From Bacteroidota bacterium (GTDB taxonomy: Bacteria; Bacteroidota; Bacteroidia; Palsa-948): a stretch of 33,316 nucleotides of DNA. Both the position numbers and the translations under genes were made by a program. The notes under the pieces are model-generated. The model did not search any database, was not told the DNA's origin, and saw only the letters and a program-made list of their open reading frames with translations. Of this stretch, positions 1,262-15,400 are shown in pieces. Position 1 is the stretch's first letter; every line of letters begins with the position of its first letter. The stretch lies in assembly GCA_016213435.1 (NCBI GenBank), contig JACRAL010000113.1, forward strand, positions 1 to 33,316, read 5' to 3'.

Positions 1262-2365
1262 ATGTTGAGCTCAGAAGAACAAAACCGCTACTCCCGTCAC
1301 ATCATCATGCCTGAGATTGGAATTGAGGGACAGGAAAAACTCAAACAGGCAAAAGTGTTGGTTGTTGGTGCCGGAGGGTTGGGTTGTCCTGTACTGCAAT
1401 ATCTCACAGCAGCGGGAGTCGGAACAATTGGAATTGTGGATGATGATGTTGTGGATGAGTCGAATCTTCAAAGACAAATTCTATTTTCTTCAGAGGATAT
1501 TGGAAAATCAAAAGTTGAAGTTGCATCTAAAAAACTTTCTCTATTGAACCCTCACTGTCAACTGCCAACTGCCAACTGTCGACTCTCTTCTGCAAATGCA
1601 CTGGAAATAATTAAGGACTACGATTTAATAATTGACGGCTCCGATAATTTCCCAACCCGATATTTGGTGAACGATGCCTGCGTGATGCTGAACAAACCGC
1701 TGGTGTTTGGTTCTATATTTAAGTTTGAAGGACAAGTGAGTGTTTTTAATTACAGGAACGGTCCAACTTACCGCTGTCTTTTTCCTGAACCTCCTGTTGA
1801 TTCTCCTAACTGTGCCGAAATCGGAGTGCTTGGCGTTCTGCCGGGGATCGTTGGCACACTCATGACAAATGAAGCGCTGAAAATAATTCTCGGAATCGGA
1901 TCAGTTCTTTCAGGAAAACTTTTTGTTATGGATGCACTGAATTGTCAAACACAAATAATTTCTTTCGGGAAGAACCTCGAAAATTTTAATATCAAATCAT
2001 TTACCGATTATGATGCATTCTGTACTACTCCCCTCTCCTTTGGGAGAGGGGTAGGGGGTGAGGTCAAGCAAGTTTCTGTTTATGACCTCAAGAAACTTTT
2101 TGACTCCAAAACAGATTTTCAGCTGATAGATGTGCGGGAAGTAAACGAGTATAAACTTTCAAATATAAAAGGCGAAAATATTCCTCTTGGCTCTGTCGAG
2201 AAAAATACTGATAGGATTTCCCGCAGCAAACAAGTGATCATTCATTGCAAGAGCGGAGCAAGAAGTAAAAAAGCAATCGAACTCCTTCAGCAGAAATACG
2301 GATTTACCAATCTTTATAATCTTACAGGTGGAATAGATGCATGGAATAAGATGCCCCGACCCTAA
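1262..2365 (+). CDS. MoeB/ThiF-type adenylyltransferase with C-terminal rhodanese domain
   Basis: This E1-like enzyme would adenylate the C-terminal GlyGly of a sulfur carrier (ThiS or MoaD) and could pass sulfur to it. Residues 1-250 are the E1 domain, with VVGAGGLGCPV (34-44), DDDVVDESNLQRQ (60-72) and DGSDNFPTR (125-133). Residues 270-367 are a rhodanese domain with active-site Cys329 in HCKSGARS. The layout matches MOCS3/Uba4-like fusions. The Zn-binding CxxC pairs of MoeB are not intact: the first reads TYRC (169-172) and the second is not seen. Two repeats are read in frame: a CAACTGC-type tract (1556-1582, residues 99-106) and a palindrome (2027-2064, TPLSFGRGVGGEV) in the interdomain linker. 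It is a plausible partner for ThiS at 21847, because no other E1 is seen here. Confidence 0.85.
   Translation: MLSSEEQNRYSRHIIMPEIGIEGQEKLKQAKVLVVGAGGLGCPVLQYLTAAGVGTIGIVDDDVVDESNLQRQILFSSEDIGKSKVEVASKKLSLLNPHCQLPTANCRLSSANALEIIKDYDLIIDGSDNFPTRYLVNDACVMLNKPLVFGSIFKFEGQVSVFNYRNGPTYRCLFPEPPVDSPNCAEIGVLGVLPGIVGTLMTNEALKIILGIGSVLSGKLFVMDALNCQTQIISFGKNLENFNIKSFTDYDAFCTTPLSFGRGVGGEVKQVSVYDLKKLFDSKTDFQLIDVREVNEYKLSNIKGENIPLGSVEKNTDRISRSKQVIIHCKSGARSKKAIELLQQKYGFTNLYNLTGGIDAWNKMPRP
2027..2064 (+). repeat. Palindromic dispersed repeat, in frame in the E1-rhodanese linker
   Basis: CCCCTCTCC (2030-2038), loop TTTG, GGAGAGGGG (2043-2051), then TAGGGGGTGAGG. The same core recurs near 12304, 17763, 21578 and 26789. 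Here it encodes TPLSFGRGVGGEV without a frameshift, between the adenylyltransferase and rhodanese domains. Confidence 0.85.
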
Positions 2366-2376
2366 AGGGAGAAGTA

Positions 2377-3006
2377 TTATTCTATAGGTAAATTCAACTC
2401 AGCAAATTTCTCTTTCACTTTCAGAAATTCCTGCAAAGGATTTTCTGTTTTCCAGATTGCGGTGTCAAATGCCATACCTGCAAAGCCCATTTCATGTGCT
2501 TTTTGGATTTTATCAATCGAAACCCCTCCTCTTGCAATGACTTTATACTTGGTCTTTTGGAGAAAGGGTCTGAGATTATTTTCCGTAAATCCTGCCTGAG
2601 ATTTTCCGGATGGGGAATCAAATACGGGAGAAATGAAAACATAATTATAGCGGAGGTTTTTTTCGTAAAGTTTTCCTGCATAGCGGAATGTAGTTGTGAT
2701 CTGGATTTTGTTATTCCGGAACTTGAACCATTTTTTCTTGAGCCACAGTCTGACTTTGTTTTTTTTATGAGAACGGGTAATGTAAATGCCTTTCAGGTGA
2801 AACTTTATTGCAAGTTCGTGATGAGTGTGAAGGACGATTCGTTCGTGATATTTCTGAGGGATATCCGAAATAAATTGTTTTAATTCACGTGTGGAAAATT
2901 TTGTTTTTCGCAAATGATAGGTAGGCAAACCCTCTTCAAACATGTGTAACAGGAGAGGAATCTCTGAGTCTTTTGGTTTGGATGGAGATATTAGAATCAG
3001 TTTCAT
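2377..3006 (-). CDS. ThiE/TenI-like protein, divergent
   Basis: A 209-residue TIM-barrel protein of the thiamine phosphate synthase/TenI superfamily. It begins MKLILISPSKP and keeps YHLRK (30-34), FISPVFDSPSGKS (124-136, the place of the GPxxxTxTK phosphate motif) and ARGGV followed by GFAGMAF. The catalytic HLG segment of true ThiE is replaced by GIYITRSH (73-80), and a strongly basic insert follows (KKNKVRLWLKKKWFKFR). It resembles the gene at 26467 more than the canonical ThiE at 29034. It may be a TenI-like thiazole tautomerase or have another role; synthase activity is doubtful. Its start overlaps the end of the GGGP synthase by 4 bp, indicating translational coupling. Confidence 0.7.
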   Translation of the reverse strand: MKLILISPSKPKDSEIPLLLHMFEEGLPTYHLRKTKFSTRELKQFISDIPQKYHERIVLHTHHELAIKFHLKGIYITRSHKKNKVRLWLKKKWFKFRNNKIQITTTFRYAGKLYEKNLRYNYVFISPVFDSPSGKSQAGFTENNLRPFLQKTKYKVIARGGVSIDKIQKAHEMGFAGMAFDTAIWKTENPLQEFLKVKEKFAELNLPIE

Positions 3007-3740
3007 ATAAATGAATGAATTGCTTTTGAGATGTTTCTTACAAGGGCACTGTCTTTCTCGATTGCGTTGCCCACCACAATCATGTCTGCCCCTGATTTGC
3101 AGAGTTCTATCGCTTTGTCCGGGGAATCAATTCCTCCGCCAACAATAACCGGAGTTGAAATATTCTTTTTGACTTCTTTAACGATGGATAGATTCAAAGT
3201 ATTTTTTGCTCCGCTTCCCGCTTCAAGATAGATCATCTTCATGCCGAGCAGTTCGCCCGCAATGGCAGTGGACACCGCAAGGGTTGCATTCGAACTTTTT
3301 ATAGGAGAAGTGCGTGTAACTGCCTGAGTAGAGATCTTTTTTCCTCCACCGATCAAAATGTATCCTGTGGGAATGATCTCGAGTTTTGATCTTTTTAATT
3401 GCTGCGCTGCGCGTATGTGTTCGCCAATGAGGTAATCCGGATTTCTTCCTGAAATAAGTGACAAAAGCAAAATGGCATCGGCTTTCCCGGATATTTGTTC
3501 CCTGCTTCCGGGAAAAATTACAAGCGGGATTTTCGTGAGTGTGCGAATCGTATTAACGCATCGGTGAAAGTTTTCTTTCTTCACCCTGCTTCCTCCGATA
3601 AAAATATAATCAACGTTTGCCTTGTACGCTTCCCGGATCACTTCAGGGAAAAACTTGTCAGGGTCAACGAGGACGGAGAAGAGTTTTTTTCCTTTCTTTT
3701 TACTCTTGAGGATGGATTTATAAATCCCTGACTTTATCAT
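3003..3740 (-). CDS. Geranylgeranylglyceryl phosphate synthase-like prenyltransferase (PcrB/GGGPS family)
   Basis: A 245-residue TIM-barrel enzyme that would join a polyprenyl diphosphate to sn-glycerol-1-phosphate to form an ether-lipid precursor. Visible family motifs are FSVLVDPDK (21-29), FIGGSRVKKE, PTGYILIGGGK, IYLEAGSGA, PVIVGGGI and MIVVGNAIEKD. These are the glycerol phosphate and prenyl-binding loops. Bacterial members occur in Bacteroidota (group II enzymes) as well as the heptaprenyl PcrB of Firmicutes. It is the middle gene of a minus-strand operon: 20 bp after the PPTase and overlapping the ThiE-like gene by 4 bp. The prenyl chain length cannot be judged from sequence alone. Confidence 0.88.
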   Translation of the reverse strand: MIKSGIYKSILKSKKKGKKLFSVLVDPDKFFPEVIREAYKANVDYIFIGGSRVKKENFHRCVNTIRTLTKIPLVIFPGSREQISGKADAILLLSLISGRNPDYLIGEHIRAAQQLKRSKLEIIPTGYILIGGGKKISTQAVTRTSPIKSSNATLAVSTAIAGELLGMKMIYLEAGSGAKNTLNLSIVKEVKKNISTPVIVGGGIDSPDKAIELCKSGADMIVVGNAIEKDSALVRNISKAIHSFI

Positions 3741-3760
3741 AAAATGAATGCGCGAATATA

Positions 3761-4429
3761 CTAATCCTCATTAATTACATACGCCAGCATATAACTGTCA
3801 TCGCCTGACCCGATAGCTATCGGGTTCAGCTTTTCGTATTGGAGTGTGAAAGATCTTTTTGTTGAAGATTTATTTATCCACCCACGTATGATTCCTTTAT
3901 CAGCAGAGTAGCGAAATGGTTCCACTGCCAGGTTTTCTTTAAATGCCAGTTCTTTCTTGCCATACAGTTTATACAGCGATTCTTTTGCGCACCAATACAC
4001 GGTAAGTTGTTCGACCATGTTTTCTTTCTGCAAGGACTTTAGTTCTGCAGCGCTCATAAATTTTTCTTTTATCCTTAAAACCTTGGTCTTGATAAGTTCA
4101 ATGTCTATTCCGGTTTCATGTTCATCCAGAATAATTGCCAGAAGATTGTGAGAATGAGAAATGGAAATATGTTTCTTCGAATTTTTAAGAAAAGGTTTGT
4201 TGTGCTCATCATAAATGATCCGGATATCTTTCTCGTTTGAGAGTTGTTCGGCCAGTATTCTTGCTGTTAGCCATTCTTTCTTTCTGTGCTCGTAAGAAAA
4301 GGAGTTCAGCACAAACAAATCAACTTCAGAAAGTTGTTTCATCTTAAGGAGTTCGTCCAGCGATTCGGTGATATGCCAAATGCCGATTTTTCCGTTGTTC
4401 CGGACTTGCTCTATGTTATATAATGGCAT
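3761..4429 (-). CDS. 4'-phosphopantetheinyl transferase superfamily protein
   Basis: A 222-residue Sfp-type transferase that would move the phosphopantetheine arm of CoA onto carrier-protein serines. The Mg/CoA motifs GIDIE (107-111) and WCAKESLYK (146-154) are intact. The start at 4429 (MPLYNIEQ) is preferred to the in-frame ATG at 4462, because MPL followed by KIGIWHI is the common beginning of the Bacteroidota family. Near the C-terminus, KLNPIAIGSGDD is encoded across a palindrome (3809-3824), apparently an in-frame repeat. The gene is divergent from gdhA and heads the PPTase-GGGPS-ThiE-like operon. Confidence 0.85.
   Translation of the reverse strand: MPLYNIEQVRNNGKIGIWHITESLDELLKMKQLSEVDLFVLNSFSYEHRKKEWLTARILAEQLSNEKDIRIIYDEHNKPFLKNSKKHISISHSHNLLAIILDEHETGIDIELIKTKVLRIKEKFMSAAELKSLQKENMVEQLTVYWCAKESLYKLYGKKELAFKENLAVEPFRYSADKGIIRGWINKSSTKRSFTLQYEKLNPIAIGSGDDSYMLAYVINED
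3805..3829. repeat. Palindromic element CCCGATAGCTATCGGG inside the PPTase gene
   Basis: The perfect 16-bp palindrome CCCGATAGCTATCGGG (3809-3824) is flanked by CTGA and TTCAG, extending the pairing with one bulged base. The same 16-mer forms the centre of the 50-bp palindrome at 17710-17759. It is read in frame as part of LNPIAIGSG. Confidence 0.75.
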
Positions 4430-4567
4430 TTTGCAAAACTGATAAAAAATGACTAAAATCATCTTATTATCTCACTTTAAAAGAAAATTAAATGTCTTTT
4501 CTGATTACAAAATAATTTTACTTTTACAGCGCATTCAGGAAAAATAATCAACCACAAACAAATTTAT

Positions 4568-5965
4568 ATGGCTACACTTACAGCAGTAAAACCAGCGAAA
4601 GCTAAATCGAATGGAAGCAGCAAAGTGGAAAATGAGATCCACAAATTTATGGCAAAGGTTGCCGCAAAAGATCCTAACCAGCCCGAATTTTTACAGGCGG
4701 TGATGGAAGTTGCGGAAGCGGTGATTCCATACACCATGGAACACACAAAATATGCAGACGCAAAAATTCTTGAGCGTATTGCAGAACCGGAACGCGTAAT
4801 TCAATTCCGTGTGCCTTGGTTAGATGACAAAGGTCGTTTTCAAATCAACCGTGGATTCCGTATTCAAATGAACAGCGCCATCGGTCCTTATAAAGGCGGA
4901 TTGCGTTTCCATCCTTCGGTGAATCTTTCCATCCTCAAGTTTTTGGCTTTCGAACAAGTGTTCAAGAACTCTTTGACCACACTTCCAATGGGAGGTGGTA
5001 AAGGAGGTTCTGATTTTGATCCAAAAGGAAAATCGGATAATGAAGTGATGAAGTTCACACAATCGTTCATGACCGAACTTGCAAAACATATTGGCGCTGA
5101 TACAGACGTTCCGGCCGGAGATATCGGAGTGGGAGGGCGCGAGATCGGTTTCATGTTCGGACAATATAAAAGAGTACGTAATGAATTTACAGGAATTCTT
5201 ACCGGAAAAGGACTTGCGTATGGAGGAAGTTTGATTCGCCCTGAAGCAACCGGTTACGGATGCGTATATTTCGTTCAGGAAATGCTGGCTACCAAAGGCG
5301 ATTCTTTCAAAGGAAAACGCGTAGTGGTATCGGGTTCAGGAAACGTGGCGCAATACACCATTGAGAAAGTAAATCAACTCGGTGGAAAAGTGGTTACCGC
5401 TTCTGATTCTGAAGGATATATTTACGACAAGAACGGAATCAACGCGGAGAAACTTGCGTTCATCATGGAATTGAAAAATGAAAAACGCGGACGCATTAAA
5501 GAATATGTGAAAGAATTTAAATCGGCAGAGTTCCATGCAGGAAAAACTCCCTGGGGAGTTAAATGCGATGTGGCTCTTCCTTCTGCTACTCAAAATGAAT
5601 TGAACGGTGCAGATGCAGAAATGCTGGTTGCAAACGGGTGCATTGCAGTGGGCGAAGGCGCGAATATGCCAAGCACACCTGAAGCAGTAACTGTTTTCCA
5701 AAATCATAAGATCATGTTTGCGCCCGGCAAAGCATCTAATGCCGGTGGTGTTGCAACATCGGGGTTGGAAATGAGCCAAAACTCTCTGCGTTTGTCATGG
5801 ACACGCGAAGAAGTTGACCAACGCCTGCACGGCATCATGAAGAGCATTCATGCCAGTTGCGTGAAGTACGGCAAAAGCGGCAACCATGTTGATTACGTGA
5901 AAGGCGCTAACATTGGCGGCTTTGTAAAAGTTGCCGATGCGATGATGGCACAGGGAATGGTATAA
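4568..5965 (+). CDS. gdhA: Glutamate dehydrogenase, NADP-type hexameric
   Basis: A 465-residue enzyme, slightly longer than the E. coli protein (447) because of an Ala/Lys-rich N-terminus. It interconverts 2-oxoglutarate plus ammonium and glutamate in the cytosol. [15 protein letters not shown] (105-119) is the substrate site. [19 protein letters not shown] (139-157) carries the catalytic Lys145. [20 protein letters not shown] follows, and [12 protein letters not shown] is the dinucleotide-binding turn. Overall similarity is to the NADP-specific, anabolic class. It stands alone, divergent from the PPTase across 138 bp; a near-consensus -7 box TACTTTTA is at 4519-4526. A repeat and a strong terminator follow the stop. 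Confidence 0.95.
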
Positions 5966-5966
5966 T

Positions 5967-6059
5967 ACCTCACCCCCTGCCCCTCTCAGCCTCATCCGTC
6001 CTTCGGACACCTTCTCCAAAGGAGAAGGGAAGTTGAAGAGAGTTTTTAGGAGAGGGGAG
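5967..6059. repeat. Composite palindromic dispersed repeat after gdhA
   Basis: Starts ACCTCACCCCCTGCCCCTCTC immediately after the gdhA stop and ends in GAGAGGGGAG. Inside are the hairpins GTCCTTCGGAC and CCTTCTCC-AAA-GGAGAAGG. It is the reverse orientation of the CCTCTCC/GGTGAGG family seen elsewhere, with an internal insertion. Confidence 0.7.
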
Positions 6060-6069
6060 TAAAAAATAC

Positions 6070-6107
6070 AAATCCCTCAGTCCGTTTGGATTGGGGGATT
6101 TTTTTTT
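6070..6107 (+). terminator. Rho-independent terminator of gdhA
   Basis: AAATCCCTCA (6070-6079) pairs with TGGGGGATTT (6092-6101) over 10 bp with one wobble, and a run of nine T (6099-6107) follows. It lies about 105 bp after the gdhA stop, beyond the dispersed repeat. Confidence 0.85.
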
Positions 6108-6187
6108 GGCTGTTTCTCCCCCTCCGGAGGCAACCGTAGGTTGGGAACGAAGTTCGGGGGGAGGATTTTTGTGGCGGACCGAAGCTC

Positions 6188-6415
6188 AAGCGTTAACATT
6201 GTGAAGAAACACATGCTTTATCACAATCCAAGCGTTGACATTGTGAAGAAGCACATGCTTTATCACAACTCAAGCGTTAGGATTGTGAAGAACCACATGC
6301 TTTATCACAATCCAAGCGTTGACATTGTGAAGAAGCATATGTATTATCACAATCCAAGCGTTGACATTATGAAAAACCATTAGTTTTATCATAATTCAAT
6401 CATTGGCATTGAGGA
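6188..6415. repeat. Tandem array of 42-bp hairpin units
   Basis: Five full 42-bp units start at 6188, 6230, 6272, 6314 and 6356, with a decayed sixth from 6398. In each unit ATTGTGAAGAAGC and GCTTTATCACAAT form an imperfect 13-bp stem with loop ACAT, and a constant AAGCGTTGAC-type linker separates the stems. The period is a multiple of three, so an ORF (6141-6383) reads a 14-residue repeat NPSVDIVKKHMLYH up to a TAG in the fifth unit. The last units decay and no signal peptide or domain is visible, so it is listed as a repeat rather than a gene. Confidence 0.85.
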
Positions 6416-6630
6416 GAGAGAATTACAGGGCTTAAGCAGAAAGCATAAAGGATGTGCAGATTCTGTATTTTCTATGTCTCTTCGCGTCTTTTCGGTGATT
6501 TTTTTGTCCAGGCAGTTCTCCTATTAAGGGGCTCTGCGCATAACTCACCAGAGTCCTCCGATGAACATCGGAGAGACTCTGCAGGAACTAAAATATTTTT
6601 TTGTTTCTTCTGTTTTTTAAAAATAGTTTC
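6416..6630. repeat. Dispersed-repeat material with a strong hairpin
   Basis: No gene is seen here. CAGAGTC (6549-6555) plus CTCCGATG (6556-6563) pair with CATCGGAG (6566-6573) and GACTCTG (6575-6581), giving a 15-bp stem with one bulged base. A T-rich tract follows at 6595-6618. On the minus strand the text around 6450-6510 reads ACCGAAAAGACGCGAAGAGA, a style typical of Bacteroidota dispersed repeats. The hairpin could also act as a terminator. Confidence 0.55.
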
Positions 6631-6638
6631 TATCTTTG
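6631..6638 (+). promoter_or_regulatory. Bacteroidota-type -7 promoter box for the AIPR gene
   Basis: TATCTTTG matches the TAnnTTTG consensus exactly. It lies 66 bp before the ATG at 6705, which would give a leader of about 60 nt. No strong -33 box is evident. Confidence 0.5.
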
Positions 6639-6704
6639 AGATGTCTATTCAGAGTTGTCATGGCAAGAATGCTATCGACATAAAAACTGTGGTAGGCAGA
6701 CATA

Positions 6705-7895
6705 ATGAAAACAAATACATCCGCGCGAAAGCGCAATGAGTCCTTTTATTTGGACTTTCACTCGATCAGGAACATAAGTTGTCCTGAAGACACACAAAAC
6801 AATCGTAAAGTTTTTCTCGGTCAATGTTTAATCCAATCGATTATTCCTTTGCCAACCGATGAAAATGTGCGCAACTATCTTGTTGATGCTGACGGAAAGC
6901 AAAAAAGATCGTACACTTCCGTTCATAAAGCTATTAGAGAGACATTAGTGAATGCCTCAGAAAATTTCAATGTTCTTAATTCTGGTGTTACGATTGTTGC
7001 TAGAGATATGATAATTGATGAAAAAACTAAAAAGATAGAGTTAATTAATCCAAGTATTATTAATGGAGCACAAACACAAGGAGTAATTTCAGATTACATT
7101 TTCTCGATCCCTTTGGATACCCATATTAAATGTGAAATTATCATTACAGATGATGATGATTTAATTTCGGAAATTTCCATAGCTAGGAATTTTCAAAATG
7201 ATGTTACTAGACTTTCAATAGTAGGCAAGTATGGGATGTTTGATGAATTGCAAAAAAGAATTCAGAAGGTTCTTCCAGAAGCAAGGTTGAGAAAATCTGA
7301 ATCCGAATTTCCTTCTGATGATGTAGTTGATACAGAGAAATTGTTGCAAGTAATTACCGCATTAATTCCTAAAGAACTATGGTTAAAAAAGAATGAGCAA
7401 GAAGACCCTAATAAGGTATATACTTATAGCATGAAAGCAAGATGTTTGAAGGATTTTCAAGAGATGCATGAAAAAGCTGCAGATAAAAAAGATCCTGATT
7501 ATGAGCAATATAAAAATCTATACGACTTCTTCTTAGATATTGCTCCAGATGCACATTTGTTGTATGAAAAATGGAAAACTCATCAAGCTTTCAGAGGTTC
7601 TGGCTTAAAATGTCTTGAAAGAGATGGAAGAATAATAACTGATATCCCTGATGGAATTATTTTCCCAATTATTTCTGCTCTCTCAGTATTTGCTGAGAAA
7701 TCGGAAAATCATTGGAAGTTAAATATTCCACATGATATAATTGATCAAGAACTAGCAAAAACTGCCAAATCAGTGCTTATGGATTTTGCTAAACATAATC
7801 CACAAACAATGGGCAAAAGCAAAGCTTGTTATAGCTCGTTATTACAAATATCATCTTTATACAAAAAACTGACATCTGAGAAATTGTTTGTTTAG
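6705..7895 (+). CDS. AIPR-family protein (abortive-infection phage-resistance associated)
   Basis: A 396-residue protein without signal peptide. The segment from FNVLNSGVTIVARDM (88-102) to ELINPSIINGAQTQGVISDY (112-131), then ISIARNFQNDVTRLS (157-171), matches the hallmark of the AIPR family (PF10592): NNGITI, then NPQIVNGCQT, then a polar N-rich helix. Family members are named from a lactococcal abortive-infection protein and are often near restriction-modification genes. Biochemical activity is not established. Here it stands alone, with its own promoter box and terminator. It is visibly AT-richer than its neighbours and flanked by repeats, suggesting horizontal acquisition. It is shorter than many AIPR proteins. 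Confidence 0.7.
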   Translation: MKTNTSARKRNESFYLDFHSIRNISCPEDTQNNRKVFLGQCLIQSIIPLPTDENVRNYLVDADGKQKRSYTSVHKAIRETLVNASENFNVLNSGVTIVARDMIIDEKTKKIELINPSIINGAQTQGVISDYIFSIPLDTHIKCEIIITDDDDLISEISIARNFQNDVTRLSIVGKYGMFDELQKRIQKVLPEARLRKSESEFPSDDVVDTEKLLQVITALIPKELWLKKNEQEDPNKVYTYSMKARCLKDFQEMHEKAADKKDPDYEQYKNLYDFFLDIAPDAHLLYEKWKTHQAFRGSGLKCLERDGRIITDIPDGIIFPIISALSVFAEKSENHWKLNIPHDIIDQELAKTAKSVLMDFAKHNPQTMGKSKACYSSLLQISSLYKKLTSEKLFV

Positions 7896-7908
7896 TTATA
7901 ATAAATGG

Positions 7909-7944
7909 GGAGGAAGGATATTTTTTTATTCTTCCTCCTTTTTT
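7909..7944 (+). terminator. Rho-independent terminator of the AIPR gene
   Basis: GGAGGAAG (7909-7916) and CTTCCTCC (7931-7938) form a perfect 8-bp stem around a T-rich loop, and six T follow. It begins 13 bp after the AIPR stop. Confidence 0.85.
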
Positions 7945-7977
7945 ATGACAGTTGTGCAATTTGTTTTCATTCTGCCA

Positions 7978-8370
7978 CTACTTCCCAAAATTCTTCTTGC
8001 TCAACTCATTCACCACTTCTTCATACACTTCGTTCAGCAGTTCGGGATGGGCAATATAAAAGGTTAAACTTTCTTCGTATTGCTTTTTGGTGATGGTATC
8101 TTTCTCGAAAACCTGCTGAAAGTTGATAGTTGCCTTTTGGGTTGAATCAGCAAATGCGTTTGGGTTTGCTTCCGCTTCTGCAAGGTGAATATCGGTGAGT
8201 ACCTGCGCCATTTTTCCTTTGGGCAGGACGTTGGGAGGGATAGAGATTGCTTTCTGTCCGCAGGAGAAAAGAGCAACAGATAACGTAATTGCGAGGAACG
8301 AAGTGACGAAGCAATCTCTGAGATTGCTTCCCACCACAGGTCGGGATTGCAATGACGAATGTCTTTCCAT
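7978..8370 (-). CDS. Small DUF4296-like lipoprotein
   Basis: A 130-residue protein. LPKGKMAQVLTDIHLAEAEAN (about 49-69) resembles the core of DUF4296 lipoproteins of Bacteroidota, whose function is unknown. ITLSVALFSC (residues 28-37) gives a lipobox-like site, so Cys37 would be lipidated. The preceding part of the signal peptide (about residues 5-29) is encoded by a dispersed repeat (8287-8358), giving an unusually long n-region with Arg and Cys. The ATG at 8370 is the only ATG available upstream of the lipobox. A perfect TACCTTTG box at 8375-8382 lies so close that the mRNA would be leaderless or nearly so, unless a downstream GTG/TTG is used. It is divergent from the barrel gene. Confidence 0.7.
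   Translation of the reverse strand: MERHSSLQSRPVVGSNLRDCFVTSFLAITLSVALFSCGQKAISIPPNVLPKGKMAQVLTDIHLAEAEANPNAFADSTQKATINFQQVFEKDTITKKQYEESLTFYIAHPELLNEVYEEVVNELSKKNFGK
8287..8358. repeat. Dispersed repeat inside the lipoprotein signal peptide
   Basis: Contains the 23-nt palindrome GAAGCAATCTC-T-GAGATTGCTTC (8308-8330), flanked by GCGAGGAACGAAGTGAC and CCACCACAGGTCGGGATTG. From memory this GCGAGGAACGAAGTGACGAA type is found as an interspersed repeat in several bacterial groups. It is read in frame by the DUF4296-like gene. Confidence 0.75.
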
Positions 8371-8374
8371 GCGG

Positions 8375-8382
8375 CAAAGGTA
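8375..8382 (-). promoter_or_regulatory. -7 promoter box for the DUF4296-like lipoprotein
   Basis: On the minus strand the sequence is TACCTTTG, a perfect TAnnTTTG. It ends only 4 bp before the annotated ATG, so the transcript would start at or just inside the start codon. Confidence 0.45.
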
Positions 8383-8419
8383 AAATGATACTTCATAAAC
8401 AGAAAAACAAAATTTAGAT

Positions 8420-8427
8420 TACTTTTG
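8420..8427 (+). promoter_or_regulatory. -7 promoter box for the barrel protein
   Basis: TACTTTTG matches TAnnTTTG and ends 24 bp before the ATG at 8452. An upstream in-frame ATG at 8425 overlaps the box, which argues against that start. Confidence 0.5.
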
Positions 8428-8451
8428 TTTATCAATAAAAAGAATTCGGAA

Positions 8452-9852
8452 ATGAAAAAAATACTTTTTACATCTGCCATCTTACTTCTTGCTACTTACT
8501 TTTCTTTTGCTCAGGTTGATCTTGGTCTCCCCGGTGCCACCGGAATGGGCGGTGTGGCGAACGGGATCGTAAAGGATTGGGAATGCATTGGTGTAAATCC
8601 AGCCAATCTGGGATGGAAGAGCAATCACCGGTTTTCTATGAGCGCCTTGATTTTTGGCATAAGCGTTCAATCCAGTGCGCTTGATTACAGCCAGCTTAAA
8701 GCAGCGATGCTTCACCCCGCAGATACTTTCTCCACTGCTAATAAAAGCAATTTTGCATCGTTATTTTCCGGGAAGGATGGATTGAATATGCAGGCAAATT
8801 TAAACTGGCTCACATTTTCTTTTGTTGTTCCGAAAGTGGGTGGGTTCGCCATGAATTTGCGCGACAGGACGTATGGAAACGTTACGCTCAATAAAAATGC
8901 TTCGGATATACTCTTTCTGGGAATCAATGCTCCTATTTTTCAAGATACAGCCGCTTTACGTACTCAAGACATTTCAACAGTCTTTGATGGATCCAAAGTC
9001 AGTTATATGCATTACCGCGAAATGAATATTTCCTATGGAAGAAAAATTTTCAGCTTTGGCGGAATCATGGATTCAAATGCTGTTTCTATTTATGGCGGCA
9101 TCGGTTTCAAATATTTATGGGGGCTTGGAAACTTCCAAATGATTGCCGATAACGGAGTGCTTACCGGTCATTCTTCTTTTTCTTCTCAATATGGGATTAA
9201 CTACGGAAACGTTCAAAATTTTACTCCTCAAACTTCTGCCGGATTATTTCCTTCCGTAGGAAACGGATCTGCTTTGGATCTAGGCATTGGCGTTGGAGTA
9301 GGAAAAATAAAATTTGCTTTTTCCGCCACCGATCTCGGCAAGATCACTTGGAATAAAAATGTGTTAACTGCACAGGATACTTTGTTGCCGGACACTTCGC
9401 GATTCAATTATGCCGGAATTAATTCATGGGATCTTTCTAAGCAAGCAAAAAATCTGTTCAACGACAGCGGCTTGGTGAAATTCAAACCCGGAAGTTCATA
9501 CTCAACAAAACTTCCTGCTAAATTCAGAATGGGAGTGGGGTATCAGATTGCAAAAAGGCTTGCTCTTGGAGCAGACTTAGTGATGCCTTTGAACAATGAT
9601 CCTACAAATCTTAAGAATGCATATTTTGCAATTGGCACTAAGATTGAACTCGCATCTAATCTTCGCATCTGTTTTGGTGTTGCCGGAAACTCCACGTATG
9701 GAGTTTCAGTCCCGGCTGGAATAACATTCGGACATTTCTTCAGGGTATTGGAATTAGGTATTGCCACCAACGACCTGCTTACCTACATTAATCACGGAAG
9801 TAATCCGAACATTTCTTTTGCGATGGCATTGTTCCGCTTTAATGTTAGATAA
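8452..9852 (+). CDS. DUF5723-like outer-membrane beta-barrel protein
   Basis: A 466-residue exported protein. MKKILFTSAILLLATYFSFAQ is a clear signal peptide. The mature part begins VDLGLPGATGMGGVANGIVKDWECIGVNPANLGW, as in PorV/FadL-like Bacteroidota barrels of the DUF5723 type. Repeated alternating strands (for example IYGGIGFKYLWGLGNFQ and FRMGVGYQIAKRLALGADL) and a strand-like C-terminus ISFAMALFRFNVR support an outer-membrane barrel. Substrate is unknown. The start at 8452 is chosen for the signal peptide and because the -7 box lies upstream. The SDR gene follows after 9 bp, so they may share a transcript. Confidence 0.75.
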   Translation: MKKILFTSAILLLATYFSFAQVDLGLPGATGMGGVANGIVKDWECIGVNPANLGWKSNHRFSMSALIFGISVQSSALDYSQLKAAMLHPADTFSTANKSNFASLFSGKDGLNMQANLNWLTFSFVVPKVGGFAMNLRDRTYGNVTLNKNASDILFLGINAPIFQDTAALRTQDISTVFDGSKVSYMHYREMNISYGRKIFSFGGIMDSNAVSIYGGIGFKYLWGLGNFQMIADNGVLTGHSSFSSQYGINYGNVQNFTPQTSAGLFPSVGNGSALDLGIGVGVGKIKFAFSATDLGKITWNKNVLTAQDTLLPDTSRFNYAGINSWDLSKQAKNLFNDSGLVKFKPGSSYSTKLPAKFRMGVGYQIAKRLALGADLVMPLNNDPTNLKNAYFAIGTKIELASNLRICFGVAGNSTYGVSVPAGITFGHFFRVLELGIATNDLLTYINHGSNPNISFAMALFRFNVR

Positions 9853-9861
9853 GCTAAAAAC

Positions 9862-10668
9862 ATGAGTACATTCTTTGAAAACAAAGTAGTCTGGATAACG
9901 GGAGCATCTTCAGGTCTTGGCGAAGCCCTTGCCAAGGAATTTGCTGTGGGAAAAGCAAAACTTGTCTTATCAGCACGTAGAGAGTCCGAATTGGAGCGTG
10001 TAAAAAAAGAATGTGCAATACATATTTCTCCAGAAAATATTTTAACTCTTCCGATGGATGTTGCCGAACTTTCAAACGTAAAAACGGATGTGCAGAAAGT
10101 AATTCAGAAATTCGGAAGAGTAGACATTCTGCTGAACAATGCTGGAATTGCGCAACGTTCTTTTGCCGGGGATACTCCAATCGAAGTGGAACGGACAATC
10201 ATGGAGGTGAATTATTTTGGTGCCATTATTCTGACCAAAGAAGTTTTACACGTGATGCGCAGGCAGCAATCCGGAAACATTGTTGCGATCAGCAGTGTGA
10301 TGGGAAAATTTGGATATCCGGGTCGTTCATCCTACAGCGCTTCCAAGCATGCGCTTCACGGATATTTCGAATCGCTCCGTATAGAGGAGAATAAAAACAA
10401 TATTCATGTTCATGTTATTTGTCCGGGCTATGTAAAGACAAATGTTTCTTATAACGCGATCACAGAAACAGGAAAGAGCCATAATCAAATGGATAAAGGA
10501 CAGGAAAAAGGCATGGATCCAAATGTTGCAGCAAGAAAAATCCTCAATGCCATACGAACTAACCGCTTCGAAACATTTTTTGGGGGAACGGAGCTTCTTG
10601 CGCTTACCTTAAAGCGGTTTCTTCCGATAATTTTTTACAGGTTGGTTGTGAGAGCGGGGAAGAAATAA
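9862..10668 (+). CDS. Short-chain dehydrogenase/reductase (SDR), DHRS7-like
   Basis: A 268-residue classical SDR. WITGASSGLG (11-20) binds the cofactor and NNAG (92-95) is the structural motif. The catalytic set is Ser144/145 with Tyr158 and Lys162 (YSASK). ARRE after the second strand suggests NADP(H). PGYVKTNV (188-195) is the usual post-catalytic loop. The C-terminal hydrophobic-basic tail (LKRFLPIIFYRLVVRAGKK) could touch the membrane. The substrate is not predictable. It lies 9 bp after the barrel gene and converges with the TonB-like gene, with 4 bp between the two stops. Confidence 0.88.
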   Translation: MSTFFENKVVWITGASSGLGEALAKEFAVGKAKLVLSARRESELERVKKECAIHISPENILTLPMDVAELSNVKTDVQKVIQKFGRVDILLNNAGIAQRSFAGDTPIEVERTIMEVNYFGAIILTKEVLHVMRRQQSGNIVAISSVMGKFGYPGRSSYSASKHALHGYFESLRIEENKNNIHVHVICPGYVKTNVSYNAITETGKSHNQMDKGQEKGMDPNVAARKILNAIRTNRFETFFGGTELLALTLKRFLPIIFYRLVVRAGKK

Positions 10669-10672
10669 TTCT

Positions 10673-12370
10673 TTAGAAAACCATCGTTACCCCTGCCAAG
10701 AAGTTAAACTTATAGCTTGGGTAGTTATTCCAGAAGTAATAGCGCGCAAATACAAGGTTGTTAAGGTTTAGGAAGGCAGAAAGTTTTTTACTGTAGCGAT
10801 ATTCAATGCCGAGGTTTGCATCCACAATGGTTTTCATCACATTTCTTTTTGATGTGGTGATAGTTATACCCGATCCTTGTCCTTGCAGTGGCGAATAAGA
10901 AAATCTTTTTCCGTATACAAACACATCGGCATTTACCACGATCTTGTTTTTCAGGTTGTAGTTTGCAGTTAAGGTGGACTGCCACAGCGGTTTGTGCCAT
11001 GGCTCAAGTTCCTTGGTCATGCCGTATTTGTTGTAATCCCCTTTCGCAATGATTTTTATCTTTTCAGTGTGCTGGTACTGAAGTTCTCCGTGAACATTCC
11101 ATAGGGTAACATCATCGTATACTGTATTGAAACCGCTTTTTAAAGAATCGGAGTTGTCGTTCACGAAAAAAATCATATCATTTATTTTGCCGAAGGAGGT
11201 GCGCGCATTATATGAAACTGTTTTGCTGATGCTTCCTTTTATTCCGCCATAGATGTCCCATTTTGTGCTGGCATTTTTCATGCCAGCATTCGGAACAATG
11301 AAAGGATTTTCACCTGAGAGCGTGTTGAGGGAGTTCTTTTTCAATCCTCCGGTTAGTCCTGCATAGGGTACAATAATGTTCTCCACTACATTGTAGTTGA
11401 AATCTATGTTTGGGTAAAGCAAAAAGCGGCTTTCTGAATTTTGCTGAGCATCAATCACTATGTTCATGCCGATGCGTGTGTTCCATTTTTCCCATGAGGC
11501 ACTCATGTGGGGATTCAATGCAACGATGGCAGAATGACCGCTGAATGTATCAAATTTGTTAGCGTAATAATCTACAAGCACAGGAATGTGTACCAGGTAT
11601 TTTTTATAGTATTTGCTGAAATCTCCTTCTGCCCGTAAATTATTTTCAGATGATTTGTAATTGTCTGTCAGATTGTAATATTTCAGTTTGAAAATATAAT
11701 TTGCATGAATGGAATCCGTGTAATGGCTTTGAAGGGCACTATTTCCGCCTATGCGGGAGTAATATTGTTTTGTGGCATTTTTATTTTCCGGATAAACCGC
11801 ATTAGTGTCGTAGCCGTAATAGTGAACAAGATTCCGGTTGTAATCCAAATTTCCCGAGAGTGTATGCTTGCGTAGGAATTTTTTTCCGTAAAGTTCGATC
11901 TGGTTATCGCTGAGTCCGCTGAATCCATATCCTTCGGATGTTGCTTTGGAAGAAAAATGTTTCAGATGGATGCCATATGAAATATTTTTAGAACGAAGAT
12001 TATTGTAGAAAATTTCCGCGTATGGAGTATTGTAATTTCCTCCTCCGATCTTTACCAATGAGCTGTAAAGCTTTGTGAGGGGCTCGCCCACCATTTTTGC
12101 AGGCTTGAGCGGATCCATATTAAAAGGCGTAAAAACTTTCTTTGCACTAATCGCATAATGAAGTGCCGGTGGAGGCGGAACGGTATCTTTTACCACAGGC
12201 ATGTCGTTCATTTTGAAAGCATCTGCAATCGTTGGCTGGAATGAGTTCACTATGATAAATGTGGTGTCCTTGAGGATTTTCTGACAAAAAGCCTCACCCC
12301 CAGCCCCTCTCCTGCAGAGAGGGGAGAAAAATGCTAGTACTACAAACAACAGTTGTTTTATGATTTTCAT
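10673..12370 (-). CDS. TonB-dependent-receptor-like outer-membrane barrel protein
   Basis: A 565-residue exported barrel. After the N-terminal MKIIKQLLFVVLAFF come about 100 residues with a Pro run (VPPPPALHY), then many amphipathic strands. It ends NLVFARYYFWNNYPSYKFNFLAGVTMVF, with the terminal Phe typical of outer-membrane barrels. It resembles the barrel part of TonB-dependent receptors, but no typical plug domain or carboxypeptidase-like N-domain is visible, so active transport is uncertain. Residues 16-27 (SPLCRRGAGGEA) come from a dispersed palindrome inserted at the end of the signal peptide. It is 56 bp downstream of the TPR gene and probably cotranscribed with it. Confidence 0.75.
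   Translation of the reverse strand: MKIIKQLLFVVLAFFSPLCRRGAGGEAFCQKILKDTTFIIVNSFQPTIADAFKMNDMPVVKDTVPPPPALHYAISAKKVFTPFNMDPLKPAKMVGEPLTKLYSSLVKIGGGNYNTPYAEIFYNNLRSKNISYGIHLKHFSSKATSEGYGFSGLSDNQIELYGKKFLRKHTLSGNLDYNRNLVHYYGYDTNAVYPENKNATKQYYSRIGGNSALQSHYTDSIHANYIFKLKYYNLTDNYKSSENNLRAEGDFSKYYKKYLVHIPVLVDYYANKFDTFSGHSAIVALNPHMSASWEKWNTRIGMNIVIDAQQNSESRFLLYPNIDFNYNVVENIIVPYAGLTGGLKKNSLNTLSGENPFIVPNAGMKNASTKWDIYGGIKGSISKTVSYNARTSFGKINDMIFFVNDNSDSLKSGFNTVYDDVTLWNVHGELQYQHTEKIKIIAKGDYNKYGMTKELEPWHKPLWQSTLTANYNLKNKIVVNADVFVYGKRFSYSPLQGQGSGITITTSKRNVMKTIVDANLGIEYRYSKKLSAFLNLNNLVFARYYFWNNYPSYKFNFLAGVTMVF
12290..12328 (-). repeat. Palindromic dispersed repeat in the TonB-like signal peptide
   Basis: CCCCTCTC (12304-12311), loop CTGCA, GAGAGGGG (12317-12324), with CCTCACCCCCAG on the outer side. 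Read on the minus strand it gives SPLCRRGAGGEA, in the same frame and direction as the copies at 2027 and 26786. Confidence 0.85.
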
Positions 12371-12387
12371 TTTATATTCTTTAAGTC

Positions 12388-12420
12388 CTCTGTCCTCTCC
12401 CTGAAGGGGAGAGATAGAGA
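12388..12420. repeat. Palindromic dispersed repeat between the TPR and TonB-like genes
   Basis: CTCTCCC (12395-12401), loop TGAA, GGGGAGAG (12406-12413), followed by ATAGAGAGGG. It fills most of the 56-bp spacer between the two minus-strand genes. It lacks a T tract on the minus strand, so termination is not implied. Confidence 0.7.
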
Positions 12421-12426
12421 GGGAAA

Positions 12427-15400
12427 TTATTCCTGCTTATACAAAGTCGAATCTTTCGGGTTCTCCGGTGTGAATTGTATATTCAGATCTTCTGTTTTCT
12501 TTTGTTGCTTTTTATCCTGCTCTGCTTTTTCCAGCTCGGCAATTTTGTTCAGCTTTTCTTTTGCCACTGCAATGAATTCCGCGTTACTTGATTTATCGAT
12601 CAGCTTCTGCAGTGCGTATTTCGCATTAAAGAAATCTTTTAACCCTGCATAATCATCGGAGAGAAGGATAAACCCTTTGCCAACCCAATACTCATAGCTG
12701 GGTTCCTGGCTGATCAGTTCAAAAACAGTTTTTTGAGATTCCTTGTATTGCTCATTCAGGAACTGAACATAAGCAATGTTGTATTTTGCTTCAGCATTTT
12801 TTTCGCTGGTGGTCAGGTAAGTAACATTCAGAAACTCCTTTGTTGCCATGTCGTAATATTTTATTTCCGAATAACATTTTCCTATAATGAGATGTGCTTC
12901 TGCTTTTATATCGTTTGAAACTTTTTCAAGGGTCGTCACTTTTTGGGCAGCCATTTTTGCCGAATCATAATTCGCAAGCAGCCACTGACAGCGCATTTCT
13001 CCAATCCTAGCTTCATTTACATTAGCGGGATATTCTGCAACCTGTGCAAGACGAATGTATTGAGGTAAGGCATTTTGGTAATTTTTGTTTTTGAAATTAA
13101 TGGAAGATGCTTTTAAGAGCGATGATTCGGTGAATTGATTGTAAGGCTTCCCAATCACATATTGGTATCCACTAAGTGCAGCATCCTGATTTTCTGCATT
13201 GTAATCACACTCGGCTTTGTAATACATTGCATGGGTCATAAAAATTCCATCAGGATATTTTGTGATGTACTTTGTGAAATATTTATGCGCGTTCTCGCAA
13301 TCGTCTTTGTCATAATAATCAAACGCAACATCGTAATTACTCGAATCAAGAGAAGCGAGCGAAACAGCGGCATATGGGATGTTTTTTAATTTTGTTTCGT
13401 ATCCCTCCATGTCACTTTTTGCCCTGTAAATATCCTTCATTGCACGGATGGCTTCAAAAGCTTCATTTGTCTTTGGATAAGCAGCCAAAACTTTATCAAG
13501 CGTTGCGAGCGCGCCATCAAAGTCTTTTTTCTCTGACTGAATCAAACCAATCTGCAGGAGAGATTTTCCGGTATAGGAACACTCGGGATGCTCAGCTACC
13601 ACTTTTTTGTAGTACGCAAGTGCATTGTCTTCATTTCCTAATTGCAAGTAAGTGGCAGCAAGTTCAAATTTTCCAGCAGCTTCGTATTTTGATTTTCCCG
13701 AATAGTTTGTCAAAAATTCTGACAGTGTTTTTGCTTTTGCTTCACGTTTTCCTATTAATCCCAGTGCAAGCGATTTTTGGTACATGGCATAATCCACATC
13801 GCGTTTTCCTGTCTTCAGCGCTTCATCATAATAATCCACTGCATTGTTGTAATCTTTTGTCATAAAGAAATTGTCTCCGATCCTCAGGTAGGCATCGTTC
13901 ATTTTTTCTTTCGGCTCGCCTGATTTTAATCCTACATATTTTCTGAACCATACATTCGCTTCAGTATAATTTGTCTTTTTGAAATTGGCATAACCGAGAT
14001 TGTAATTCGCAGCGTAGAACTCGTTGTTGTTGATCGCTCCGGGAGAGGAAAGAAATGTTTTATATTCCGTGATGGCTGAATCTAACTTAAAAGCAACTCC
14101 GTCTTTTTCGGCTAATTGATAGAAAGATTCTCCTTTCCAGTAATGAGCAAGCGAAGTAAAATCCCTGTTAGAGGGATGCGTCAGCGATTTATTCAGATAA
14201 GAGATGGCTTCCTGCGGATGATTATTACTATACAATTGAAGTCCCCGCATAAAAGCGATTTTCTGATATGCGCCTTTCATTTCATCGTTAAGCGCTTTTA
14301 TGCTTTCAATGGATGTCATTGCTTCCTGGTAATTTTTTGTGGACAGATAAACGCTTACTAGATATTTATAACACTCATCAATACGCGGAGAGTTTGGATA
14401 TTTATCAATGTATTGATGCAGTGCAAGGATCGCTTCATTAAAAGGGCTGAAAGAAAGTTCATAGCAGAGTTTTGCGTAATTGAACAACGCGTCTTCTGTT
14501 ATAGTCTTGTCCAAATCTAATTTTGCAGCTATCTCAAAACAATTTTTTGCCAGCATCTTTTCTGCTTTTCCTCCCGTGTATGGCGACCTTTTAATATAGC
14601 AATCTGCCAGGTGATAATATGCGTTTTGGGCAATGGAATCGTTTCCTCCCGTGGCATTTGGGAAACACTCCACTGCCTTTATGTAATCCGCGCTGTTGTA
14701 ATAAGCAAACCCGAGTTGATACCATTCAGGACGTTTGAGATAACTCGCGTAACTTTTATATTTTTCAAGATAAGGAAGAGATTCTTTGTATCGAGAAGTC
14801 CGGTAATACGATTCTCCGATGATTTTTGTTAATTCCACAACCCGTTTGGTAGTTGAATCGAGAAGCGGAATGGCATAGGCTATTGCGCTGTCGTATTTCT
14901 GCTGGAGGTAAAATATTTGTGCAATATAATAAGGAACGATCGGTCCGAAATTTTCGTTTTTCTTTAGTTTCACGAAATGCTGCATCGCTGTCTGGTAGTT
15001 TTTTTCTAAGTAGGAAATATGTCCGAAGTAATAAGTAGAAGGCGCTGCGTACTTGTTATCAATATCCTTTATCTCGAAGAAATCTTTTTTTGCTTTTTCC
15101 ATGCTGTCTTCCTCAAAATAGCTGTAGCCGCGCTTGAAATAAAGTTCCGAAAGTTCTTCGTTGTTCAGGTCATACACATCCACTTTTGAGAACCACTCCA
15201 GGGCTTTGTTGTATTGCTTTTTTCGGTAATTGTATTTCCCTAAATGAAAATAAACCGCTTGCACTCTCGGACCTTCAGGATGATCGGCTATAAAGCTTTT
15301 CAGAAGCAATTCGGCATCTTTGTTAAAAAGTTCCAGTGCGCAGAGTGCAGCGTAATATTCTGCATCAACTCTAACCAGATTGTTCGGTTCGTTTTGATAG

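Follow-up and report, generated by a model that had tools for sequence, protein, structure and literature searches.

A short AIPR gene in the genome of a Bacteroidota bacterium is, judged from its relatives and their surroundings, probably a mobile anti-phage factor that works as a single gene and belongs to a short AIPR subfamily, a reading in which we have moderate confidence and for which the mechanism is putative. The gene (6705..7895, forward strand) lies in a window of 33,316 nucleotides, the whole stretch of DNA that was analysed. It appears to be a self-contained, horizontally acquired gene and may be cargo that is swapped among prophages, plasmids and defence islands; its likely role would be protection of the carrier against competing phages. 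An earlier note on this DNA had proposed a candidate single-gene defence element. The gene does stand alone, and the finding that some relatives are carried by phages and others neighbor known defence genes makes a defence role likelier than it was from sequence alone, but the two-sided repeats and the convincing promoter of that proposal did not hold up.

Gene identity and transcription signals

The 396-aa protein matches the PF10592 (AIPR) profile at 94.7 bits (E 1.1e-26; Pfam cut-off 25) over residues 53-362, which correspond to profile positions 3-297 of 308. This profile search, suggested in the earlier note, places the protein in AIPR far above the curated cut-off, which was also exceeded by the relatives scanned (4/4). 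The PADLOC AbiU model is matched only at positions 247-405 of 537, and the PHROG "Abi alpha-like" also matches; both matches cover only the part that corresponds to the middle of these longer proteins. An AIPR-type stretch of MzaE from the MZA system (NF041935) is recognizable at residues 71-128, but the score of 15.7 bits versus a cut-off of 1050 places the protein outside MZA, and none of the other MZA genes was noticed. No second AIPR gene was found in the genome (single copy).

The gene had been credited with its own promoter and terminator. A terminator-like hairpin with a T-run is indeed present at its 3' end (7907..7940, forward strand), although three such sites were found in the region versus 1.9 +/- 1.6 expected, and thus for this hairpin the position alone is suggestive. 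The promoter is weak. The consensus of the Bacteroidota-type -7 box is TAnnTTTG, and TATCTTTG (6631..6638, forward strand) is a possible, weak instance, one of 32 matches to the consensus on both strands of the whole window. There is no TTG 17-23 nt upstream of this box, and sigma-70-type sites are not in excess of those in shuffled sequence (6 versus 8.2 +/- 3.2). Thus, no convincing promoter was identified.

Genomic setting and probable acquisition

Upstream of the gene lie glutamate dehydrogenase and a hairpin resembling a terminator (6070-6101). The downstream neighbors are a DUF4296 gene in the opposite orientation, a 475-aa ORF that matches no Pfam family, and a gene for a short-chain dehydrogenase. 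A Pfam family scan of 18 window ORFs (including the AIPR gene, and a subset of all ORFs) agrees with the earlier description in that core-type genes flank both sides and no restriction-modification gene is among the ORFs covered. No defence neighbor was identified among the ORFs scanned.

The glutamate dehydrogenase and DUF4296 genes are separated by 2,012 bp, versus 147 bp and 154 bp in two sister genomes (G005 and G006) and about 80 bp, read off a genome comparison, in a third (G001). Relative to these three genomes, where the two flanking genes lie side by side, the extra DNA extends approximately over 6103..7976 and carries this single gene, consistent with its description as stand-alone. 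In G002, G003 and G004 the two flanking genes are apart. A close copy of the AIPR gene was identified in none of the other genomes of the genus (0/6), and there was no match at E 1e-15 in other genomes of the phylum (0/394). Thus, the gene is not conserved at this site, and the comparison with gene-free sisters that had been suggested yields an empty junction in 3/6 and an island of one gene. The third codon position GC content (GC3) is 0.257, versus a mean of 0.405 +/- 0.035 for 17 other window genes. The simplest reading of these comparisons, relative to independent losses, is that the gene was probably gained at this site by horizontal transfer. We also considered whether the junction is a defence hotspot. 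The DNA beside the flanking genes in G002, G003 and G004, judged from an ORF listing and tblastx, contains ordinary or TPR genes, and the junction is therefore not called one.

The region between glutamate dehydrogenase and the AIPR gene is rich in repeats. A 42-bp tandem array of 5.4 copies (6187..6411), the units of which fold as palindromes, was found nowhere else in this genome and in none of the other genomes of the genus (0/6). Its last unit is altered on both arms (ATTGTGA/TCACAAT to ATTATGA/TCATAAT), and the array can also be read as an open frame encoding repeats of 14 aa. We considered and rejected a role for the array as a regulatory or RNA element, given that there is no Rfam match in 5900-8000 and that the array is absent from all six sister genomes and from the DNA upstream of the four relatives checked; we set it aside as a local minisatellite. 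A dispersed hairpin-type repeat (6494..6581) has seven more copies elsewhere in this genome, and a second dispersed intergenic repeat is at 5980-6059. Both of these recur on another contig of the genome (C154), at most ~300 bp apart. Downstream of the AIPR gene no comparable repeat was found. A 16-nt imperfect inverted pair (6701-6716 / 7959-7974) is the sole candidate boundary repeat and may be due to chance. Thus, of the repeat-bounded island described previously, the upstream repeats stand, but with repeats on that side only the island is not bounded by them.

A subfamily of short AIPR proteins

The window protein and eight relatives of similar length, 44-56% identical to it, form a short subfamily (n=9). 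Of the relatives, three come from genome records (one of Melioribacter, one labelled Verrucomicrobia and one of Lysobacterales), one is on a Tritonibacter plasmid, and four are on IMG/VR contigs (L041, L042, L043 and L044). Among Pseudomonadota genomes a match was seen in only one more, G514 (2/398 including the centre); its coordinates are identical to those of the L044 record, and it was counted once. Viral scans using the single window sequence and using the AIPR of sister genome G003 returned no matches; a repeat viral scan recovered the same four phage-contig loci.

The AIPR of G003 is a different protein of 629 aa, encoded elsewhere in that genome (L031, contig 21, 2876-7209), with a TdeIII type II endonuclease on one side and an N6/N4 methylase on the other; the gene beside this locus is presumably mnmG-like. 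Over the corresponding part, the G003 protein and the window protein share only 28% identity. The conserved core is shared, as are the NGxQT and NxQN motifs, but it begins at residue 53 in the 396-aa protein and at residue 277 in the G003 protein, with ~50 and ~275 residues ahead of it, respectively. The window protein thus lacks the long N-terminal region of canonical AIPR/AbiU proteins and, among the 18 ORFs scanned, the adjacent restriction-modification genes of the restriction-linked forms. The absence of these parts, which accompany the G003 AIPR, could mean that the gene is a functionless leftover from the decay of a larger AIPR/restriction island. This is very improbable given that the reading frame is unbroken, with a terminator-like hairpin after it, and that all eight relatives, despite the divergence, have the same short length and invariant motifs. 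Thus, we conclude that short is the normal form of the subfamily.

In a tree of the subfamily, phage-contig copies pair with non-phage ones: L042 and the copy on the Tritonibacter plasmid are 89% identical, and L043 and the Lysobacterales copy are 77% identical. This pairing indicates exchange of short AIPR genes between phages and hosts.

Gene neighborhoods of the relatives

Defence-type genes occur near three of the four non-phage relatives. The Tritonibacter copy adjoins a DRT UG13b defence reverse transcriptase (425 bits) and a SLATT protein; no paper treating UG13 and SLATT together was found (open-licence PMC papers). Upstream of the Lysobacterales copy (L004), past an IS21 copy, are SIR2 (568 bits) and HerA (885 bits), and downstream are a BglII-type endonuclease, an MT-A70 methylase and a MobA relaxase. 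The region from 1662 to 13145 of this locus is dense in defence genes (SIR2-HerA, IS21, the short AIPR, MobA, MT-A70, the BglII-type endonuclease and WYL). At L003, a PLD nuclease-like gene is 180 bp upstream of the short AIPR. For the Melioribacter copy (L002), we identified only a weak HD/dGTPase match, below the Pfam cut-off, and a GIY-YIG gene.

The phage contigs encode an integrase (L041 and L044), terminase and portal proteins (L043) or head genes (L042). All four were drawn from a virus collection, and they therefore establish carriage by phages rather than enrichment in them. In the prophage region of L044 (4413-8902), the short AIPR adjoins a Schlafen AlbA_2 gene and two small proteins without a Pfam match, with an integrase near this group. 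No neighbor family recurs between the nine loci (blastp of 752 stop-to-stop frames). One blastp pair was the only candidate for a conserved partner gene, and it was rejected, as its coordinates overlap the antisense of the AIPR start.

The finding of four of the eight relatives in phage contigs, and the close pairing of phage and chromosomal copies, would also be expected of an accessory gene of phages that works in their favor, in counter-defence or host take-over, and was stranded on the chromosome after prophage decay. Passages of PMC12704722 propose that phage ParB-fold fusion proteins are perhaps anti-defence. We regard this as the main rival, yet an unlikely one: the non-phage relatives sit for the most part (3/4) with defence-type genes, and at the window locus the ORF is intact and no prophage remnant was identified among the ORFs scanned.

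Structure prediction and motif conservation

From 8 sequences, AlphaFold2 gave a model of the window protein with modest confidence (pLDDT 68, pTM 0.55) that includes a predicted ParB/sulfiredoxin-like core at residues 27-169 (6783..7211, forward strand). A Foldseek search of the PDB returned nothing at E 0.001, the best match being a pNOB8-like ParB N-domain (E 0.03). In a second look at the fold, ranks 1-9, 11 and 12 are ParB, Noc, PadC, KorB or sulfiredoxin (Z 7.7-5.1, residues ~23-169), and SspE and an entry for DndBCDE-DndI are lower in the list. The best superposition (Z 7.7) has an rmsd of 3.8 over 103 residues. In a viral structure library, an AIPR protein is the best match, followed by DndB-like, GmrSD N-terminal and ParB entries. 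Given that the Z values are below 8, we consider it probable, rather than proven, that residues ~27-169 adopt the ParB/sulfiredoxin fold of DndB and SspE. Searches of the PDB using phmmer and hmmsearch gave no meaningful match. An hhalign comparison of 8 AIPR with 15 ParB sequences (15/20 fetched; five were dropped as the motif filter saw no GERR-type box) gave Prob 0.3, and thus no detectable profile similarity.

Two motifs are conserved in this core. NGAQT (residues 120-124; 7062..7076, forward strand) is located at the place of the ParB GxxR and the SspE DGQQR, an equivalence drawn from the order of strand and helix in the model and from a by-eye alignment. The strand-G-helix segment has NG[A/S]QT in 9/9 members and GERR in ParB, with threonine replacing arginine. 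RNFQND (residues 161-166; 7185..7202, forward strand), at the place of ParB box III, EN[I/L/V]QR (ENxQR), is identical in 9/9 members. Passages of PMC13251355 describe the arginine of DGQQR in SspE as needed for GTP hydrolysis and defence, and in passages of PMC12704722 GxxR-to-A mutants provide the negative control where NTP binding by the ParB fold is assayed. The short proteins lack the arginine that characterizes active ParB, DndB and SspE NTPases, and threonine at this position throughout suggests, given the modelled fold, a binding-only or otherwise altered pocket.

The likeness to known systems is partial. ParB and Noc CTPases are structural neighbors of the model at Z 6.5-7.7 and share the box III-like NxQ motif, but the window protein lacks the GxxR P motif and an HTH_ParB match. 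The predicted fold of residues ~27-169 is also that of DndB and SspE (ParB-like superfamily, DUF262), and the N-terminal domain of DndB is assigned to AbiU1/AIPR in passages of PMC3506569. Unlike SspE, the short AIPR proteins have no HNH domain, and the scanned ORFs of the window include no phosphorothioation genes.

The C-terminal part (residues 174-396; 7224..7892, forward strand) is predicted to be mostly helical (pLDDT 74 and pTM 0.78 when modelled alone by AlphaFold2). It has no PDB match below E 0.32, and its best second-look match, residues 335-529 of SspE (Z 4.3), is near noise and is a hint only. A HEPN identity was rejected, as there is no Pfam HEPN match and R-x(4-5)-H strings picked out by eye are not in one column of the alignment.

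The modelled ParB/DndB-type fold and the palindromic array upstream raise the question of a DndB-like, nucleotide-modulated transcriptional regulator, perhaps acting on that array; DndB is described as an ATP-dependent repressor in passages of PMC10853773 and PMC12704722. We consider such a regulator improbable. No such array is present upstream of the relatives checked (0/4), Pfam identifies no DNA-binding domain, and there is no constant neighbor to regulate.

Proposed function and implications

For an anti-phage factor encoded by one gene, the favored reading, we suggest that the N-terminal ParB/sulfiredoxin-like core would sense a ligand that comes from the phage, whether a nucleotide, modified DNA or a protein, and that the helical C-terminal part may carry or relay the effect. 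As the arginine used by SspE for NTP hydrolysis is threonine in every member, ligand binding would be expected without classical GTP/ATP hydrolysis. A bolder version, which we put forward tentatively and consider doubtful, is that the stripped-down AIPR core is a complete, partner-free, one-gene anti-phage switch: a ParB-fold sensor converted from GxxR to GxQT in which binding alone would trigger the protein's own helical C-terminal effector, and which would move between prophages, plasmids and chromosomes of several phyla.

No experimental anti-phage test of the short subfamily was recognized in the literature (open-licence PMC papers). According to passages of PMC3506569 and PMC2292703, AIPR genes are rated as defence genes largely by their position beside restriction systems. 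The short, partner-free, phage-carried subfamily is a minimal AIPR construct, and the invariant NGxQT motif offers a single residue for testing. If the short protein fails to protect, the missing N-terminal region would be the suspected effector. If it protects alone, the AIPR core itself would be active, and the view of AIPR as a restriction accessory would need to be revised.
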